Below, piece after piece: positions 12,025-19,575 of a stretch of 35,300 nt of DNA. The notes beneath the pieces are model-generated. The model searched no databases, had not been told where the DNA came from, and saw only the letters and a program-made list of their open reading frames with translations. Within the stretch, counting starts at the first letter, position 1, and each line of letters starts with the position of its first letter. This DNA comes from Candidatus Kerfeldbacteria bacterium (GTDB lineage: Bacteria > Patescibacteriota > Patescibacteriia > UBA9570 > XYC2-FULL-38-9): positions 1-35,300 of the forward strand of contig JAHBAR020000022.1 in the NCBI GenBank assembly GCA_018500015.2, written 5' to 3'. The translations under genes and the position numbers were made by a program.

Positions 12025-13302
12025 TTACTGAAGCCTACGCACGCACTCTTGAAATTGATTGCCCTTGTCTTCAAAGTTTTTGAAAATGGTGTAGCTAGGT
12101 GATGCGCACGAAAGAAGCGCGGCAGTATTTTTTTTGCAATGCTCTGCGATGAACTCAACGGTTTTACCCATTGAAGTGGTATGGAGAGTATGTGGAGCAA
12201 CCCAGCCTGCGTGGATAATTGCTTTTTCGATCGTCTCACCTGAGCTTGGAAAAAAAACAATCACGGGAATTTTTCGTTTTGCAATTTCTTTTGCAAGCTC
12301 AGTAAAATCATATCCGCGATTGAGCCCACCAAGTATTATTGCGCCCGTGTTTGGGAATGTGTGCAATGCTGCAAGCGTTGATTCAGGAGTTGTGGAAATA
12401 GCATCGTCGACCCATGTGATGCTATGTTTGTGACTAACTATTTGTAAGCGATGTTTTAGGGTTATAAAAGAAAGAAGGCCATGGTGCAATGTATTGTGGT
12501 CAATAGTATAGAGCGTTGTAGCTGCAATGAGCGCCGCGACAATGTTGCTTGCGTTGTGTGCGCCCTTTGGCTGCAGCTCTTCAAATGAAGCTAGACGATT
12601 GTTTTGGAAATATATACCGTCAATTCCAACGTAATATCCATCTTTTTGAGGATACGCAATTTTTTTTGCACGTGATTGCGCGGCACGTTTTACGAGTTCA
12701 GCATTTTCAGAATTATAGATGAGCGTCTGCTCTTCAGTTTGTAGCGTCGCAATTTTCATTTTGTCGCTGTAGTACTGCTCAAGTGAGCCGTGATAGTTCA
12801 TGTGTTCGGGAAAAAGATTCACGATAACAGCAATATCAGGCGCTTTTTCTAAACGACTCGCTTGATAGCTCGACATCTCATACACAAAAAGATGATCAGG
12901 TGTGTTGTGGTCGAGGAGTGTGGTGAGTGCAGGGAAGCCGATGTTACCAACAAGTGAGACTGGAAGTTTTGCCGTCTGAATCAGGTGCGCAATGAGCGAT
13001 GCTGTTGTACTTTTTCCCTTGGAACCAGTGACCGCGATAACTTTTCCTTTGCAGTGATCAAGAAAAATATTTGTTGCGGTAGTAATAGCGCGCGCCGTCC
13101 CAAGGAGAGGAGTAGATGGGGGGATACCAGGGGAGACCACGACACAATCGTATAATGAAAGATCAGTTGGATAGTCGGTATTTTTTTGATCAACAAGGCT
13201 GAGTTGAAGATGTGGATACATCTCTGACAAAAAAACCGCAGTTGAGTTGCCTTCGATGCCAGCCCCAAGAATACAGACGTTTTTCAGTTTTTGAAAGTTC
13301 AT
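12025..13302 (-). CDS. murD: UDP-N-acetylmuramoyl-L-alanine:glutamate ligase, MurD2-like
   Basis: 425 aa Mur ligase. The ATP loop GSKGKST is at 93-99, with NLFPEHMNYH near 162-171 and LKHRLQ near 282-287. At residues 299-305 it reads DDAISTT where E. coli MurD has a D-S-K-A-T-N segment, whose Lys319 binds the D-glutamate carboxylate. Ile302 occupies that place, which fits a MurD2-type enzyme that adds L-glutamate for later epimerisation by MurL. Its ATG overlaps the murL stop by four nt (ATGA at 13302-13299), which implies translational coupling. It is the last gene of the operon that begins near 17026. Confidence 0.9.
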   Translation of the reverse strand: MNFQKLKNVCILGAGIEGNSTAVFLSEMYPHLQLSLVDQKNTDYPTDLSLYDCVVVSPGIPPSTPLLGTARAITTATNIFLDHCKGKVIAVTGSKGKSTTASLIAHLIQTAKLPVSLVGNIGFPALTTLLDHNTPDHLFVYEMSSYQASRLEKAPDIAVIVNLFPEHMNYHGSLEQYYSDKMKIATLQTEEQTLIYNSENAELVKRAAQSRAKKIAYPQKDGYYVGIDGIYFQNNRLASFEELQPKGAHNASNIVAALIAATTLYTIDHNTLHHGLLSFITLKHRLQIVSHKHSITWVDDAISTTPESTLAALHTFPNTGAIILGGLNRGYDFTELAKEIAKRKIPVIVFFPSSGETIEKAIIHAGWVAPHTLHTTSMGKTVEFIAEHCKKNTAALLSCASPSYTIFKNFEDKGNQFQECVRRLQ

Positions 13303-14609
13303 AGAAAAATATATTGTAACTCTTCAGGGATGAGATGTTGTGCGCGAGTGTACACTCGCTTTTCAAACTCTGTCATGTGTGGTGCGCGTGGAGCAATTTC
13401 CGCGATGTACATTTTCATTACAGCATCGTCATTGAATTCACCGGTTGTATGTGCCTTTTCAAAAGCAAAGATAACTTCGTCAGGAGTGCCAACGCATTCA
13501 AACGGCTTAAAGTTTTTTACGCCAAAGAGTTCACGGTAGAGATCAAGGAGTTTTTCGTCAGCAAACAGATTTTTCCCAAAGATTTCAACAAGTTGTTTTT
13601 TGGAAACAAAGGCACTCATGAGTGTAAATACGAATGCGCATTTAGGGCATTCACCACACCATCGTTTAGTAGCCTTTTTGGTGATAGAAAAATTTTTATT
13701 GCAGCTCGTGAAGAGTGAAAAATATTCCCCACAGTGTTTTACAAAGAGTTCCGTGATCGTTACTTCGGTAAACGGACGTAGAACGCTACAATAGGTGATG
13801 TCGTCAGTGATGAAATTCCGAACATATTCCTGAAGCATTTTCTCGTACTCAAACGATTTGCTCCACTGGTGATTGACGCTCATGTCGAGGTAATCGACAT
13901 TTGGAACATTCGCACTATTTTCGTTTGAAAGTAAAACGTATTGGTATCCATCAACCGCTGCGCAGAGTAAGGCGACCCACGAAAAAATTGCAGAGATAGG
14001 AATGTGTCCATTGAGAGCGCCTTCCTCATTCCATCGCAGAAGTTGATTGTCGATTGTGCGTGTCACATTGATTTCCGAAGCGCCAAGCTCCGCGATTTGA
14101 GGAGCGAGCGTTGCGTGTGAACCAAACATAAACACATCAAAAGCAATTCCACGTTTTTTTAACAGAGCGCATGTGACTAGCGAATCCTTGCCGCCGCCAA
14201 GCGGAACGAGCGCTCGACCTGTGCGCGGAACCTCGACTGGCTTTGGCACTTCTTTTTCTGTTGCAGGAAAGTGTATGAGATCGCGAAAATCAATTCTGTT
14301 TTCAAAAAAGAATTGACCAAGACCTTTGGTGTACACGCTATTCCAAAATTTTGCCTGTTGTGCTGTGAGCGCGCCAGAAGAGACGATAATGTCGTGAGGG
14401 CAAAACACTTTGTAATAGCTGACACCAAGAATCAAATGTAGGTTGAATAAAAAACGGTCAATGAGCGGCGATGGTGTGATTGGATTTTTTGTGTGAAAGG
14501 TGAGTGTCTCTACAATTTTTTTTTCGTCGAGAGCGTAGACAAAATCAACTGTGCGCCCGTCTTCGCGAATAGTGTATGCACTAAAATCAAAGCGGGTGGG
14601 TTGCCACAT
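13299..14609 (-). CDS. murL: MurL-like UDP-MurNAc-L-Ala-L-Glu epimerase
   Basis: 436 aa. MurL inverts the terminal L-Glu of UDP-MurNAc-L-Ala-L-Glu in an ATP-dependent reaction, replacing glutamate racemase. Visible family features are a PP-loop-like VPLGGGKDSLV (GGGKDS at 138-143), LLSNENSAN (227-235), NHQWSKS (246-252), and a cysteine-rich WCGECPKCAFVF near 317-328. It sits directly after the phosphohexomutase stop (one nt gap, TAATATG) and overlaps murD, the arrangement expected for a MurD2/MurL pair. The assignment rests on motif recall, and a PP-loop ligase of another kind is the alternative. Confidence 0.75.
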   Translation of the reverse strand: MWQPTRFDFSAYTIREDGRTVDFVYALDEKKIVETLTFHTKNPITPSPLIDRFLFNLHLILGVSYYKVFCPHDIIVSSGALTAQQAKFWNSVYTKGLGQFFFENRIDFRDLIHFPATEKEVPKPVEVPRTGRALVPLGGGKDSLVTCALLKKRGIAFDVFMFGSHATLAPQIAELGASEINVTRTIDNQLLRWNEEGALNGHIPISAIFSWVALLCAAVDGYQYVLLSNENSANVPNVDYLDMSVNHQWSKSFEYEKMLQEYVRNFITDDITYCSVLRPFTEVTITELFVKHCGEYFSLFTSCNKNFSITKKATKRWCGECPKCAFVFTLMSAFVSKKQLVEIFGKNLFADEKLLDLYRELFGVKNFKPFECVGTPDEVIFAFEKAHTTGEFNDDAVMKMYIAEIAPRAPHMTEFEKRVYTRAQHLIPEELQYIFL

Positions 14610-14610
14610 A

Positions 14611-15945
14611 TTATGAGCGAATCATCGAAAGTACTTCCGCAGTTTTTTGATCGCGGAGCTCAGCAGTTTTAGCTTCAAGGTTTAAGCGCAGTACAGGCTC
14701 GGTATTGGATGGGCGAACATTGAACCAAAAATCAGGGAAACGAAATGTGACGCCATCGAATTCTGTAAGCACTGCATCGGTGTAGTGTGCTTTGAGTTTT
14801 TCGATAACAGCATCTTTGTCAACAACTTCTGAGTTTGTTTCTTCAATCGCAGAATACGTCTGGAATTTTTTCAGCGCTTCAGAAAATGGAACGTTCATGA
14901 CAGAAAGCATTTCAAGAACAATAAGCGCTGCAATCAAACCAGAATCCGCTCGGAAATTTTGTGAGAAGTAGTAGTGACCCGAATGTTCGGCAGCAAAAAT
15001 TGCACCTGTGTCTTTCATTGTTTTTTTAATATATGAATGACCCACACGTTCCATAACAGCCGTGCCTCCGTTGCGTTCGATGGTTTCTTTTACTACGTCG
15101 CTACATACTACGTTGTAAATCATTGTCGCGCCGGGATTTTTTTGCAACATATTTTCTGCAACCATTGCACCAACTAGCGATGCGGAAATGCGATTACCAA
15201 GTTCATCGACAAAGAATACGCGATCAGCATCGCCATCAAATGCGAGGCCAATGTCGCACTCTTCTTTTTTTACTGTAGCGATGAGATCTTGAACATTTTT
15301 TGGATCGATAGGATTTGGTTCGTGGTTTGGCATTGTTCCATCAAGCTCGAAGTAGAGTGGAATAAGCGTGACTGGAAGGCGAGCAAATACTTTCGGAACA
15401 ATGAAACCACCCATGCCGTTGCCAGCGTCGACAGCAATTTTGAGCGGTTTGATTTTTTTCACGTCGATCATTGAGATAGCGTGTTCAACAAAATCGTTGG
15501 TGATGTCGCGTTCAGTGATTTTTCCTCGTTTTTTGCCCGCAACGAACGTTCCTTCTTCAGCAGTTTTTTGAATATCTTTCAGACCCGATTCAGCTCCAAT
15601 AGGCGTTGCGCCGCTGTTTGTCATTTTAATGCCGTTCCATTGTGCGGGATTATGAGAAGCGGTGAACATAGCAACAGGCATGTCGAATTTTCCCGCTGCA
15701 AAGTAACTAGCATCTGTAGACATGAGTCCGGCATACTCAACATTTTTTCCTCCGTCGCACACACCTTCTGCGAATGCGCGCGAAAGCATGGGCGAGCTTG
15801 AGCGCATATCGTGACCGATGAGGATGGTATCGCCTTCTACACATTGTGCAAACGAGCGACCAATGCGACGAGCAATGTCTTCGTTCAATTGTGTCGGAAA
15901 AATTCCACGAACATCGTATGCTTTAAAAATTTTAGAGAGATCCAT
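14611..15945 (-). CDS. manB: Phosphomannomutase/phosphoglucomutase
   Basis: 444 aa from the ATG at 15945 (MDLSKIFKAYDVRGI). A longer in-frame start inside the upstream gene was rejected. Alpha-D-phosphohexomutase with the phosphoserine loop TASHNP (Ser97), the Mg-binding loop DGDADR (237-242), the sugar loop EHSGHYYF, and the C-terminal phosphate loop RPSNTEP. It interconverts hexose 6- and 1-phosphates to feed nucleotide sugars for envelope polymers. Its start overlaps the end of the bactofilin-like gene by 14 nt, and murL follows after one nt, so the four genes form one operon. Mannose, glucose or glucosamine specificity cannot be told. Confidence 0.93.
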   Translation of the reverse strand: MDLSKIFKAYDVRGIFPTQLNEDIARRIGRSFAQCVEGDTILIGHDMRSSSPMLSRAFAEGVCDGGKNVEYAGLMSTDASYFAAGKFDMPVAMFTASHNPAQWNGIKMTNSGATPIGAESGLKDIQKTAEEGTFVAGKKRGKITERDITNDFVEHAISMIDVKKIKPLKIAVDAGNGMGGFIVPKVFARLPVTLIPLYFELDGTMPNHEPNPIDPKNVQDLIATVKKEECDIGLAFDGDADRVFFVDELGNRISASLVGAMVAENMLQKNPGATMIYNVVCSDVVKETIERNGGTAVMERVGHSYIKKTMKDTGAIFAAEHSGHYYFSQNFRADSGLIAALIVLEMLSVMNVPFSEALKKFQTYSAIEETNSEVVDKDAVIEKLKAHYTDAVLTEFDGVTFRFPDFWFNVRPSNTEPVLRLNLEAKTAELRDQKTAEVLSMIRS

Positions 15946-17026
15946 ATGAACGCTTAATAGAAAGTGACAGCACCCCAATACCAAGAAGTTTGACCACGCA
16001 ATCAAGGAGCCAGCCGATGCCCGGGATACTCGTGAGTATGGTGATGATTACAAATCCAAGAAGGAAAATACCGATAAGTTGCAGCGTAGAGTGTTCACTG
16101 CCTGTTGTGCGTGTAAGAGCTACGCCTACTGCATATGCCACCAGCATTTTACCGACCCATCCAGCAAAAATAAGGAGGAACACACCAACAATGGCAAACG
16201 GAATTCCAATAAGTGTTATGACAAGTAAGCAAAGAGCGCAGAGGACAACAGCGCAAGCCACAGCGCCGCGACCGAGGAACTTGAGTGGCTGGGCGCGCAA
16301 CTCTGTAGCGGCGCGTTGAGCATATGGGTAACCAAATACAATGATAAGTGCGCCTAAAATTGCTGAAACAAGAATGCTCAAGATGCCGCCAACGATTTTG
16401 AGCCCCTTGATGATGACTTGTGGGAAATCGCCACCCTGTGTGATGGTGATGCGATCGGTATCAGCAGAGTTGATTGCGGCATTGTTATTGCCGAGAGTGA
16501 TCTCTGTTGCGTTCATGTATCGACCATCGCCTTTGAGAGTTTTTACTTGAATGTGTGCTGTGCCAGAAATCGTACCATTCATCGTGAGTGTGTTTGCGTA
16601 GATGCGCACGTTGCCTTGTAGCGACGCTTTTTCGCCAATCACAACTGTGTTTGCAAAGATGAGTGTATTGCGTTTCACTGTGCCGTTGATCGTAATACTA
16701 TTGCCTGTTGCGCGCACCGACCCGGATACTGTTTTTTCAATAGTGATTTCACTACCTGCTGCAAATATATCGCCCTCGACAGCGTTCTTGATATCGACCG
16801 TGCCGGATATTGCATACACATCATTGTGTGCAGTTTCATCGATTGTTGTTGAGGCATCGGCGTGAAATTGCACGTCTCCAACTTCGTCAGAAGGCTTGGT
16901 GACATTTTGAACCTCAACTTCTGGAAAAAAATCGTCTGCGTTGACGTTTGTGTCTACGGCGTAGATTGGCGTTGCAGAGAGGACGAGGAGTCCGATGATG
17001 CTGGCAAAAAAGATGCGATGTTTCAT
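15932..17026 (-). CDS. Bactofilin-like exported membrane protein
   Basis: 364 aa. Signal peptide at 1-23 (cleavage near PIYA-VD). Residues about 70-200 consist of short beta repeats rich in G, T, I and V (GDIFAAGSEITIEKT, GSVRATGNSITING, TLTMNGTISGTAHI), as in polymer-forming bactofilins and related right-handed beta-helices. About four hydrophobic helices follow between residue 210 and the end, with a KRSYGSL tail. So the beta-helix is probably outside, anchored by a C-terminal membrane domain. It is first in the operon with manB, murL and murD, which suggests an envelope role. Exact function unknown. Confidence 0.7.
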   Translation of the reverse strand: MKHRIFFASIIGLLVLSATPIYAVDTNVNADDFFPEVEVQNVTKPSDEVGDVQFHADASTTIDETAHNDVYAISGTVDIKNAVEGDIFAAGSEITIEKTVSGSVRATGNSITINGTVKRNTLIFANTVVIGEKASLQGNVRIYANTLTMNGTISGTAHIQVKTLKGDGRYMNATEITLGNNNAAINSADTDRITITQGGDFPQVIIKGLKIVGGILSILVSAILGALIIVFGYPYAQRAATELRAQPLKFLGRGAVACAVVLCALCLLVITLIGIPFAIVGVFLLIFAGWVGKMLVAYAVGVALTRTTGSEHSTLQLIGIFLLGFVIITILTSIPGIGWLLDCVVKLLGIGVLSLSIKRSYGSL

Positions 17027-17053: not shown

Positions 17054-17082
17054 AGTATATCAAAAAAAAGCCCTTTCTTCAA
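17054..17082 (-). promoter_or_regulatory. Promoter of the envelope operon
   Basis: Minus-strand TTGAAG (17082-17077), a 17-nt spacer and TATACT (17059-17054). Predicted start near 17047, about 20 nt before the ATG at 17026. Confidence 0.6.
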
Positions 17083-17089
17083 GCCTTTT

Positions 17090-17250
17090 TAAGTAACTCC
17101 ATAAATGGCACGCTGTCGCGAGGCTGTGCCCCGCGACCCTTTCAGGGCTTGTCGTTCAGCCACTCAGCTCTCTCGACGTAGCGCCAACTACGCCTCGGTC
17201 GCTTCGCGGCTTCGAACGACGGCGCATCGCGCTCATTTTTGAAGTTACTT
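17090..17250. repeat. GC-rich structured intergenic element with 8-bp terminal inverted repeats
   Basis: A GC-rich block stands out from AT-rich flanks. It is bounded by AAGTAACT (17091-17098) and AGTTACTT (17243-17250), an 8-bp inverted repeat; the right copy includes the stop codon of the methyltransferase gene. Inside are GTCGCG/CGCGAC (17115-17120, 17132-17137), GTCGTTC/GAACGAC (17151-17157, 17214-17220), and within the latter CGTAG/CTACG (17177-17181, 17188-17192). It looks like an extragenic palindromic or MITE-like repeat, or a structured RNA/terminator. Only genome-wide copy number can decide. Confidence 0.5.
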
Positions 17251-17964
17251 TTTCAGTACCGTCACTATATTTTGTCCTTTTCTTGCTGCAACGTGCTTGC
17301 CGTGGAGTTCATAATACTGCTCAACCATTGTGAGTCTGCTTTCTTTCCCCAGAGCTTGAAGTTCTGCACGGGTGAAAGAATGATAATAGCGCTCGGCTTT
17401 GAGTTCGCCTGTTTGGGATTTCCACGGCACTAGAACGTCGCCGCGATCAAGAGTACTGTCACGAAAACAGCGAGCAATGTATGTGCGCACATGCAAACGC
17501 CAGTAGCGCGTTTGATGCAAATTCCAATTTGTCATCATAATCATTCCTCCACTTTTAATAATGCGTGCAATTTCTTTGAGTGTTGCAGCGCGTTTCTCAT
17601 ATGAGGGAATGTGATGGAAGCTCGCGATAAGAAGTGCGTGATCGAAGCTTCCGTCAGGGAAGGGGAGGTGCTCCATGTTTGCGCGCACGAACTTTTCGGC
17701 TGGATATTTTTTCTCAGCTTGCGCCAGAAGTTCTGGTGAAAGATCTGTGCCGGTGTAGTGAATACCACGCAAACGAAAACTCTCAACGAACCGTCCATTG
17801 CCGCAACCGATGTCGACAACGTTTTCTCCAGACTGAACGTACGCGTCGAGAAGGTCGTCTACACTTTTCCACGGCGCGTATCGCGTTTGCGAAAAATGCT
17901 CGGCGATGGCGTTGTACGCGTTTTGAACACCTTCAATTGTTTTCTCAGCGGCGTGTGTGTGCAT
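17245..17964 (-). CDS. Trm9/ABH8-like tRNA wobble-uridine methyltransferase
   Basis: 239 aa class I SAM methyltransferase. The SAM loop DIGCGNG is at 51-57 and TDLS at 73-76. Beyond the generic fold, several segments match the eukaryotic Trm9/ALKBH8 methyltransferase domain: IAEHFSQTRYAPW (20-32), IASFHHI (113-119), GDVLVPWK (175-182) and RYYHSFTRAEL (192-202). Trm9 methylates cm5U34 to mcm5U34 in tRNA, and cm5U is the product of Elp3, the gene directly divergent from this one. That pairing strongly supports the assignment. A -10 box ends six nt before the ATG, which predicts a leaderless message. An unrelated small-molecule methyltransferase is the alternative. Confidence 0.75.
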   Translation of the reverse strand: MHTHAAEKTIEGVQNAYNAIAEHFSQTRYAPWKSVDDLLDAYVQSGENVVDIGCGNGRFVESFRLRGIHYTGTDLSPELLAQAEKKYPAEKFVRANMEHLPFPDGSFDHALLIASFHHIPSYEKRAATLKEIARIIKSGGMIMMTNWNLHQTRYWRLHVRTYIARCFRDSTLDRGDVLVPWKSQTGELKAERYYHSFTRAELQALGKESRLTMVEQYYELHGKHVAARKGQNIVTVLKK

Positions 17965-17970
17965 GTTGGC

Positions 17971-18015
17971 ATCTTACCGTTTTCTCTTGATTTTTCAAGT
18001 GAAAAACGCTACACT
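17971..18015. promoter_or_regulatory. Back-to-back promoters of the methyltransferase and elp3
   Basis: elp3: TTGATT (17987-17992), 17 nt, TACACT (18010-18015). Methyltransferase (minus): TTGAAA (17998-17993), 16 nt, TAAGAT (17976-17971). The two -35 hexamers abut and together form an imperfect palindrome, TTGATTTTTCAA, so the promoters compete for or share one control point. Confidence 0.65.
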
Positions 18016-18024
18016 CCTTCAACT

Positions 18025-19575
18025 ATGCACGAATACGCACATGAAATTGTGAAGGAAGCGATAGAGCAGCATGTTGCAGATGCAGCTGAACTCAAGCGTA
18101 TTAAAGTTGTGTACGCAAAAAAATACAGTGAGACTGTTATTGAAAATTCCAAGCTGTTGAGAGCGTATCGCGAGATGATAGCGCGTGGCGAAGTGGATCG
18201 CGATGATGAAATGTGGACGTTGTTTTCAAAACGTAAAATTCGAAATCTTTCGGGCGTGGCTGTCATCACCGTTTTGACCAAACCATTTTTTTGTCCGGGA
18301 CGCTGTATTTATTGTCCAACAGAGGTGCGTATGCCAAAGTCGTACCTCGCCAACGAGCCCGGAGCGGCGCGTGCTGTGCGCAATGAGTTCGACCCGTATC
18401 GCCAAGTCTCATCGCGTCTCAAAACTTTGCATGACAACGGACACAACACCGACAAGTGCGAACTGATTGTTTTGGGCGGCACTTGGGACGCGTACCCGCA
18501 CGACTATCGCGAAGAGTTTATCAAGCGCTGCTTTGATGCGTTCAACGAAAGTGAAAGCGCGACATTAGATGAAGCGAAAACGAAAAATGAAACCGCAAAG
18601 CATCGCGTCATTGGTCTCACGCTCGAAACGCGCCCTGACCATGTGACGCACGACGAAGCAAAACATTTACGCCATCTTGGATGCACGCGCGTGCAACTTG
18701 GCGTGCAGACGACTGACCAAAAAGTACTCGATCTAATCAAGCGTGATCAAACGAACCAGCAGGTGATCGACGCAACACGCATCCTCAAAGAAGCTGGCTT
18801 CAAAATTTCGCACCATTATATGCAAGGGTTGCCTGGGGCAACTCCGGAGTCGGATGTGCAGACAGTGAAAGATGCGTTCCTTACTCCAGATTACCAGCCA
18901 GATCACATTAAAATTTATCCGACCGTCGTGGTGAAGACCGCGATTTTGTATCGTTGGTGGAAAGATGGCAGATATACGCCGTACACGCACGAACAACTCT
19001 TGCGGCTTCTTGTCGAGATCAAAAAAATCGTGCCGGAGTACGTGCGCATTGAGCGACTTATTCGCGACATTCCTGGCGAGTCGATTGAGGCGGGGAATAA
19101 AGTCACCAACTTGCGCCAACTGTTAGAAGAGCAGGGAGTGGTGTGTCGATGCATTCGTTGCCGTGAGCCAAAATTGCAGAAGGTGCATTTTGAAGATACC
19201 GAACTTGTTGTGCGCGAGTATAATGCTTCGCAAGGAAAAGAATTTTTTATCTCGTACGAGTCGCACGATAAAAAAACGATCTACGCATTCACGCGTTTGC
19301 GTTTGCAAAAGTTGGAGAAGCACTGGATCCCCGCGCTTCAAGACGCGGCGCTCATTCGCGAGATTCACACCTACGGTCAGCTCGTGCCGATCGATAGCGG
19401 AGCGGGGAGTGTGCAACACGTTGGTTTTGGCAAACGTTTAATGCAAGAAGCCGAAGCACTTGCGCGAAAAGCTGGTTACACAAAGATTGCTGTCATCGCC
19501 GGCATCGGTGTGCGCGAATATTTTCGTAAACTCGGCTACCACCTCGAAGACGAGTACATGGTGAAAGCGTTGTAA
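18025..19575 (+). CDS. elp3: Elp3-type tRNA uridine-34 carboxymethylation enzyme (radical SAM + GNAT)
   Basis: 516 aa from the ATG at 18025; the frame upstream overlaps the divergent gene and was rejected. Radical SAM domain with the 4Fe-4S motif CPGRCIYC (C90, C94, C97), preceded by the basic N-terminal tRNA-binding part. A cysteine cluster, CRCIRCRE (about 374-381), is followed by a C-terminal GNAT domain with the acetyl-CoA loop QHVGFG (464-469) and REYFRKLGY. Elp3 uses acetyl-CoA and SAM to build cm5U at the wobble position; single-subunit forms exist in bacteria and archaea. The predicted leader is only about three nt. Its last codons are duplicated beyond the following transposon. Confidence 0.95.
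   Translation: MHEYAHEIVKEAIEQHVADAAELKRIKVVYAKKYSETVIENSKLLRAYREMIARGEVDRDDEMWTLFSKRKIRNLSGVAVITVLTKPFFCPGRCIYCPTEVRMPKSYLANEPGAARAVRNEFDPYRQVSSRLKTLHDNGHNTDKCELIVLGGTWDAYPHDYREEFIKRCFDAFNESESATLDEAKTKNETAKHRVIGLTLETRPDHVTHDEAKHLRHLGCTRVQLGVQTTDQKVLDLIKRDQTNQQVIDATRILKEAGFKISHHYMQGLPGATPESDVQTVKDAFLTPDYQPDHIKIYPTVVVKTAILYRWWKDGRYTPYTHEQLLRLLVEIKKIVPEYVRIERLIRDIPGESIEAGNKVTNLRQLLEEQGVVCRCIRCREPKLQKVHFEDTELVVREYNASQGKEFFISYESHDKKTIYAFTRLRLQKLEKHWIPALQDAALIREIHTYGQLVPIDSGAGSVQHVGFGKRLMQEAEALARKAGYTKIAVIAGIGVREYFRKLGYHLEDEYMVKAL

Follow-up and report, generated by a model that had tools for sequence, protein, structure and literature searches.

A divergent elp3 and Trm9-like methyltransferase gene pair as a candidate route to mcm5U34 in Patescibacteria lacking detectable MnmG

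In a 35,300-nucleotide stretch of Patescibacteria DNA (hereafter the window), a gene for a Trm9-like methyltransferase lies back to back with elp3, and the same pair recurs across a bacterial class in which we detect neither MnmG nor full-length MnmE. We consider it quite likely that Elp3 makes cm5U34, that the Trm9-like enzyme converts it to mcm5U34 (mcm5s2U34 with MnmA) without Trm112, and that the pair replaces MnmE–MnmG. The initial annotation of the window had proposed the adjacent enzymes as a two-step mcm5U34 pathway. The pairing and the Trm9 scores support that proposal, and the two chemical steps, the tRNA targets and the independence from Trm112 we infer. Missing from the annotation was the absence of MnmE–MnmG, which is the stronger argument for the pathway. 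These bacteria have probably exchanged one tRNA-modification pathway for another.

The locus and its shared intergenic region

The window belongs to a 1.07-Mb genome with an estimated completeness of 98.8%. The coordinates, strands and back-to-back arrangement given in the initial annotation were confirmed (Table 1): the two genes are divergent and 60 bp apart. A longer, 605-aa elp3 frame beginning at 17758 overlaps the methyltransferase gene and is an unlikely start. Two putative sigma-70-like promoters lie back to back in the gap, and their −35 boxes, described at the outset as abutting, meet exactly at 17992/17993. A promoter scan called the minus-strand site, with 9/12 matches (0.2 sites expected from shuffles), and did not call the plus-strand site of elp3. 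The two genes may be regulated jointly from this region.

Table 1. Features of the methyltransferase–elp3 locus (positions in the window)
Feature	Position	Strand	Detail or basis
Trm9-like class I SAM methyltransferase, 239 aa, putative cm5U34 carboxyl methyltransferase	17245..17964	-	
Divergent promoter region, 60 bp, common to both genes	17965..18024	.	sequence
Promoter-like site, methyltransferase	17971..17998	-	−35 TTGAAA 17993-17998, 16-nt spacer, −10 TAAGAT 17971-17976
Promoter-like site, elp3	17987..18015	+	−35 TTGATT 17987-17992, 17-nt spacer, −10 TACACT 18010-18015
Elp3, 516 aa, complete	18025..19575	+	ATG start 18025

The surroundings of the pair hold several minor features. On the minus strand, 13299–14609 encodes a 436-aa protein without a Pfam match that carries a PP-loop-like motif (GGGKDSL), and 15932–17026 encodes a 364-aa protein, likewise without a Pfam match, in which bactofilin-like repeats and transmembrane segments are apparent by eye. 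Positions 17060–17244, which lie between the methyltransferase gene and its neighbor, are non-coding and GC-rich, possibly of repeat or mobile origin. Directly downstream of elp3 lies an IS200-like Y1 transposase (PF01797; 19703–20326, plus strand); none was present near elp3 among the 80 related loci listed from the genome scan described below.

Relation of the two proteins to Trm9 and Elp3

Pfam and NCBIfam yield no Trm9 model for the methyltransferase (METHYLTRANSFERASE), only generic or other methyltransferase names. It matches the DVU_1556, BioC and UbiE models, each below its cut-off (57 bits against UbiE/MenG, cut-off 158; 60 bits against BioC, cut-off 342), and there is no CmoM model among the 25 profile matches listed. 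Its best sequence match in the PDB is Yarrowia Trm9 (5cm2_Z, 2.9e-17), with which it shares ~30% identity, and a profile of 35 family members likewise places Trm9 5cm2 first (5.3e-28). Because the margin of this profile for Trm9 over other PDB methyltransferases is modest (101 versus 89 bits), we built a second profile from the C-terminal part only, outside the SAM core; its sole significant PDB match is Trm9 5cm2 (2.5e-5; next 0.41). Outside the SAM core the protein has segments of the Trm9 type (DVxVPW, RYYH), and the motifs HFSQTRYAPW, FHHI, DVLVPWK and RYYHSFTRAEL listed in the initial annotation are all found in it. The HMM comparison suggested there favors Trm9: scored with the family HMM, Trm9 reaches 103 bits, and the E. 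coli enzymes UbiE, BioC and CmoM reach 48, 44 and 35 (the lowest). In the fold ranking of the AlphaFold model (pLDDT 95.5), 3sm3, whose function is unassigned, stands just above Trm9, which is second (TM 0.84 on target, 26% identity).

Mutagenesis of yeast Trm9 singled out R29, H115, R241, Y243 and N271, and R29, R241 and N271 are proposed to orient cm5U34 (PMC5372719). In the window protein these five residues correspond to R28, H117, R192, Y194 and N232, and all are present (5/5); we fixed the mapping on the grounds that the yeast spacings R29–H115 (86) and R241–N271 (30) recur unchanged in the Yarrowia chain. Among 106 relatives (61 CPR, 30 Chloroflexota and 15 archaeal), R29 is kept in 106/106, R241 in 100/106 and N271 in 97/106. 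H115 is mostly conserved, with some variation, and Y243 is variable, being Y in 32/61 CPR rows and 0/30 Chloroflexota rows. Judged by its sequence, the closest characterized relative of this class I SAM methyltransferase is Trm9.

Phylogeny is compatible with membership in the Trm9 family without deciding for it. We built two trees with few outgroups and a single eukaryotic Trm9 fragment standing for the whole family. With this one eukaryotic sequence, a clade of Trm9 and the prokaryotic enzymes is marginally the best fit (AU p 0.54), and a topology with Trm9 outside the prokaryotic group is likewise not rejected (AU p 0.32). Groupings of Trm9 with UbiE/BioC or with CmoM are rejected at ~0.02 (CmoM p 0.022). 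In the first, larger tree, the outgroup rows for CmoM and for a paralog from the same genome fell inside the poorly supported base of the family. The adverse outcome named in the initial annotation, a placement outside Trm9/ALKBH8, was not obtained: the groupings with UbiE/BioC and CmoM are rejected, and the topology with Trm9 outside the prokaryotic group stands beside the single clade. We call the enzyme Trm9-like and stop short of naming it Trm9, since the clade test gave 0.54 versus 0.32 and no Trm112 partner was found.

The Elp3 had been called divergent, which holds for its orientation and not for its sequence, since its TIGR01211 score is 535.9 bits (cut-off 350), over profile positions 1–522 of 522. 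Among solved structures it is closest to Dehalococcoides Elp3 (DmcElp3; PDB 5l7j, 6.7e-117), for which residue roles have been described (PMC6367351). Aligned to 5l7j, the window Elp3 has intact catalytic residues and shares the radical-SAM cysteines (C90, C94 and C97, in CPGRCIYC), the zinc-cysteine segment (CRCIRCRE, 374–381) and the KAT residues, K144, K260, E446 and Y499 being K77, K193, E386 and Y441 of DmcElp3. It differs in an N-terminus extended by ~68 aa ahead of the aligned part.

Pairing across genomes and the absence of MnmE–MnmG

We surveyed 192 genomes, many of them MAGs, drawn evenly from the window's class. The methyltransferase was found in 120 and Elp3 in 119, with both in 110, the methyltransferase only in 10, Elp3 only in 9 and neither in 63. 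The association is strong (odds ratio 77, p 7e-30 with shared ancestry ignored), although such co-occurrence p-values overstate independence because genomes within one class share ancestry. On the same contig, 98 of 106 pairs are divergent and 78 have <500 bp between matches. Since the same divergent pair recurs in ~100 class genomes, chance adjacency is excluded. The co-occurrence across Patescibacteria that the initial annotation had proposed to check is borne out in this class, and elp3 neighborhoods in relatives, whose lack of the methyltransferase it would have counted against the pathway, overwhelmingly contain it.

Several genomes scored with one gene sit at contig ends or thresholds. 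In G184 and G098 (methyltransferase only), elp3 is truncated at the contig edge; in G102 and G120 (scored as Elp3 only), the methyltransferase lies next door, below the first threshold; and in G012 (also scored as Elp3 only), elp3 is at the contig end. Only four inspected genomes (G040, G128, G183 and G150) clearly have Elp3 without an adjoining methyltransferase. The first three, of one family, carry a ~330-aa ORF divergent beside elp3 (L202:3052-4044, L205:2116-3114 and L207:2619-3653), followed by apparent murC and murB. No methyltransferase–Elp3 fusion was noticed from open-frame lengths at the class loci.

A scan of ~85,000 species genomes, confirmed with Yarrowia Trm9 as the query, gave at least 80 best loci. 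Nearly all of the 80 best listed are from Patescibacteria; Elp3 flanks 72 of them, 65 being close and divergent, and the other neighbors of the window pair recur in only 0–12. We read this as association and not exclusivity, because the scan patterns included Patescibacteria rows and the loci are the best 80 listed.

The pairing extends to other lineages. In a Chloroflexota class (that of genome G193, reached from a Chloroflexi locus), the methyltransferase is present in 39/100 genomes, with Elp3 in all 39, and 27/30 loci examined are divergent pairs. In an archaeal class (entered from a Thermoproteota locus), it is present in 16/26 genomes, and elp3 lies downstream on the same strand in 9/17 loci, mostly overlapping. 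The archaeal gene order differs from the bacterial one, and mere inherited adjacency is therefore an unlikely explanation. Ignavibacteriales and Omnitrophota MAGs also have the methyltransferase (L092, with Elp3, and L117), through transfer or as misbinned Patescibacteria contigs; in view of this possible misbinning and of the MnmG that these MAGs encode, we did not count them as extra phyla.

We detected MnmG in 0/192 class genomes with a search that was positive in 9/14 control genomes, and MnmE in 0/192 above cut-off. Weak MnmE-like matches were rejected as full-length MnmE because they cover only profile positions ~170–400, the GTPase part; they often occur twice in a frame of ~460 aa, the pattern expected for Der, which has two GTPase domains. 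In the Chloroflexota class, Elp3 is present in 45/100 genomes and MnmG in 36/100, and the two never occur together (p 1.5e-13, again within one class). Another 19/100 have neither Elp3 nor MnmG, which may reflect incompleteness or a third solution. The thiolase MnmA is present in 177/192 genomes of the window's class (C7:53813-54865 in the window genome).

Proposed pathway and alternatives

In the pathway we propose, the radical-SAM and acetyl-CoA-binding domains of Elp3 would carboxymethylate U34 at C5, giving cm5U34, and the Trm9-like enzyme would transfer the methyl group of SAM to the cm5U34 carboxylate, giving mcm5U34. The 2-thio group of mcm5s2U34 in the tRNAs for Lys, Glu and Gln would come from MnmA, whose gene is at another genomic locus. 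The Elp3/Trm9-like pathway would thereby stand in for MnmE–MnmG. Beyond the window, we lean, with somewhat less assurance, toward the view that across most of the Patescibacteria class, and in part of Chloroflexota, an Elp3/Trm9-like pair working without Trm112 has replaced MnmE–MnmG and makes mcm5U, or mcm5s2U together with MnmA; the Trm9 family would then predate eukaryotes and be widespread in bacteria.

The pair could act on U34 as proposed and yet yield an end product other than plain mcm5U, the ester being an intermediate toward ncm5U or another cm5U derivative. Thermoplasma and yeast both contain ncm5U34, whose route from cm5U in yeast is unsettled (PMC6313347, PMC6367351), and the Chloroflexota enzymes have C, V or A at the Y243 position, so the substrate pocket differs in part. 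Nonetheless, the residues proposed to orient cm5U34 (R29, R241 and N271; PMC5372719) are kept, and no third gene is consistently paired when the window's own neighbors are followed through the 80 loci listed, and we regard such a product as unlikely, if worth some weight. It is also improbable that the methyltransferase acts on another tRNA position or translation component and has only its regulation in common with Elp3, through the intergenic region between the two genes. Class I methyltransferases switch substrate easily, and ~30% identity to Yarrowia Trm9 would leave room for such a switch, but near-obligate co-occurrence in two bacterial phyla, the different archaeal gene order, the Trm9-specific C-terminal segment and the conserved Trm9 substrate residues all argue against it.

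The generic Pfam and NCBIfam names, and the matches to the DVU_1556, BioC and UbiE models below cut-off, are what would be expected of a UbiE- or BioC-type methyltransferase that lies beside elp3 through chance or shared ancestry. We consider this very improbable given the family-profile scores (103 bits for Trm9 versus 48, 44 and 35), the rejection of Trm9 groupings with UbiE/BioC or CmoM (p ~0.02), the lack of conservation of the other neighbors among the 80 loci listed and the pairing statistics.

Several known systems resemble this one. CmoM methyl-esterifies a carboxyl group at wobble U34 (cmo5U to mcmo5U), as we propose for the window enzyme; it differs in its substrate, has the lowest reference score and is separated from Trm9 in the tree tests. 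The bacterial MnmE–MnmG(–MnmC) system also acts at C5 of the wobble uridine U34, alongside thiolation by MnmA, but it uses other enzymes and makes cmnm5/mnm5 side chains. Eukaryotic Trm9/ALKBH8 shares the class I fold, the TRYxPW, HH, DVxVPW and RYYH segments, a C-terminal Asn, Elp3 as the upstream enzyme and the five yeast substrate residues. The window enzyme is, in contrast, bacterial, a lone 239-aa methyltransferase domain, divergent with elp3 and only distantly similar, in a bacterial family in which Y243 and H115 vary. The archaeal Elp3 and Trm9-like pair (Sulfolobus, Haloferax; PMC2584109, PMC5372719, PMC7663514) also combines clustered genes with an Elp3 that stands alone, other Elongator subunits being absent; in the archaeal class surveyed here, the two genes are co-directional and mostly overlapping, not divergent.

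The description of the pathway in the initial annotation as regarded as eukaryotic is too strong: a clustering of Elp3 with Trm9 was predicted for Sulfolobus in 2008 (PMC2584109), and according to a review mcm5U34 is documented in Haloferax (PMC7663514). In vitro, archaeal Elp3 has been shown to make cm5U34 (PMC5372719). Contrary to our findings, bacteria have been reported to contain no detectable methyltransferase gene of this kind (PMC5372719), and bacterial Elp3 has been placed in one clade (PMC7663514). The accessible part of a 2026 paper describes Elp3 in numerous bacteria and mentions no methyltransferase partner (PMC13315578). Our literature search, which left subscription papers and preprints mostly outside, found no report of a bacterial Elp3/Trm9-like pair and nothing relevant on Elp3 in Patescibacteria or Chloroflexi.

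So far, mcm5U34 has counted as a eukaryotic and archaeal modification, and wobble U34 chemistry in bacteria as the work of MnmE–MnmG. In a large radiation of bacteria, and in some Chloroflexota, we find instead Elp3 accompanied by a Trm9-like enzyme, without MnmG, a pairing that predicts a specific nucleoside in the tRNA of these bacteria. If the proposal is true, it would explain how reduced genomes without MnmE–MnmG decode purine-ending split-box codons, and it would be a bacterial version of "eukaryotic" anticodon chemistry, with a small, possibly Trm112-free enzyme pair usable in vitro.

Characterized Trm9 needs Trm112, and Trm112 is known in Sulfolobus and Haloferax, which served as search controls. 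The Trm112-like partner that the initial annotation proposed to look for did not materialize: PF03966 has no match in the window genome. We considered a dependence of the window enzyme on Trm112 and found it unsupported; given this absence, the enzyme probably works without it. Across the class, Trm112 matches above cut-off lie in frames of 316–393 aa and not in free-standing small proteins. At L067 and L070, a Trm112-type zinc domain and a methyltransferase domain share one long frame, consistent with fused activator domains.
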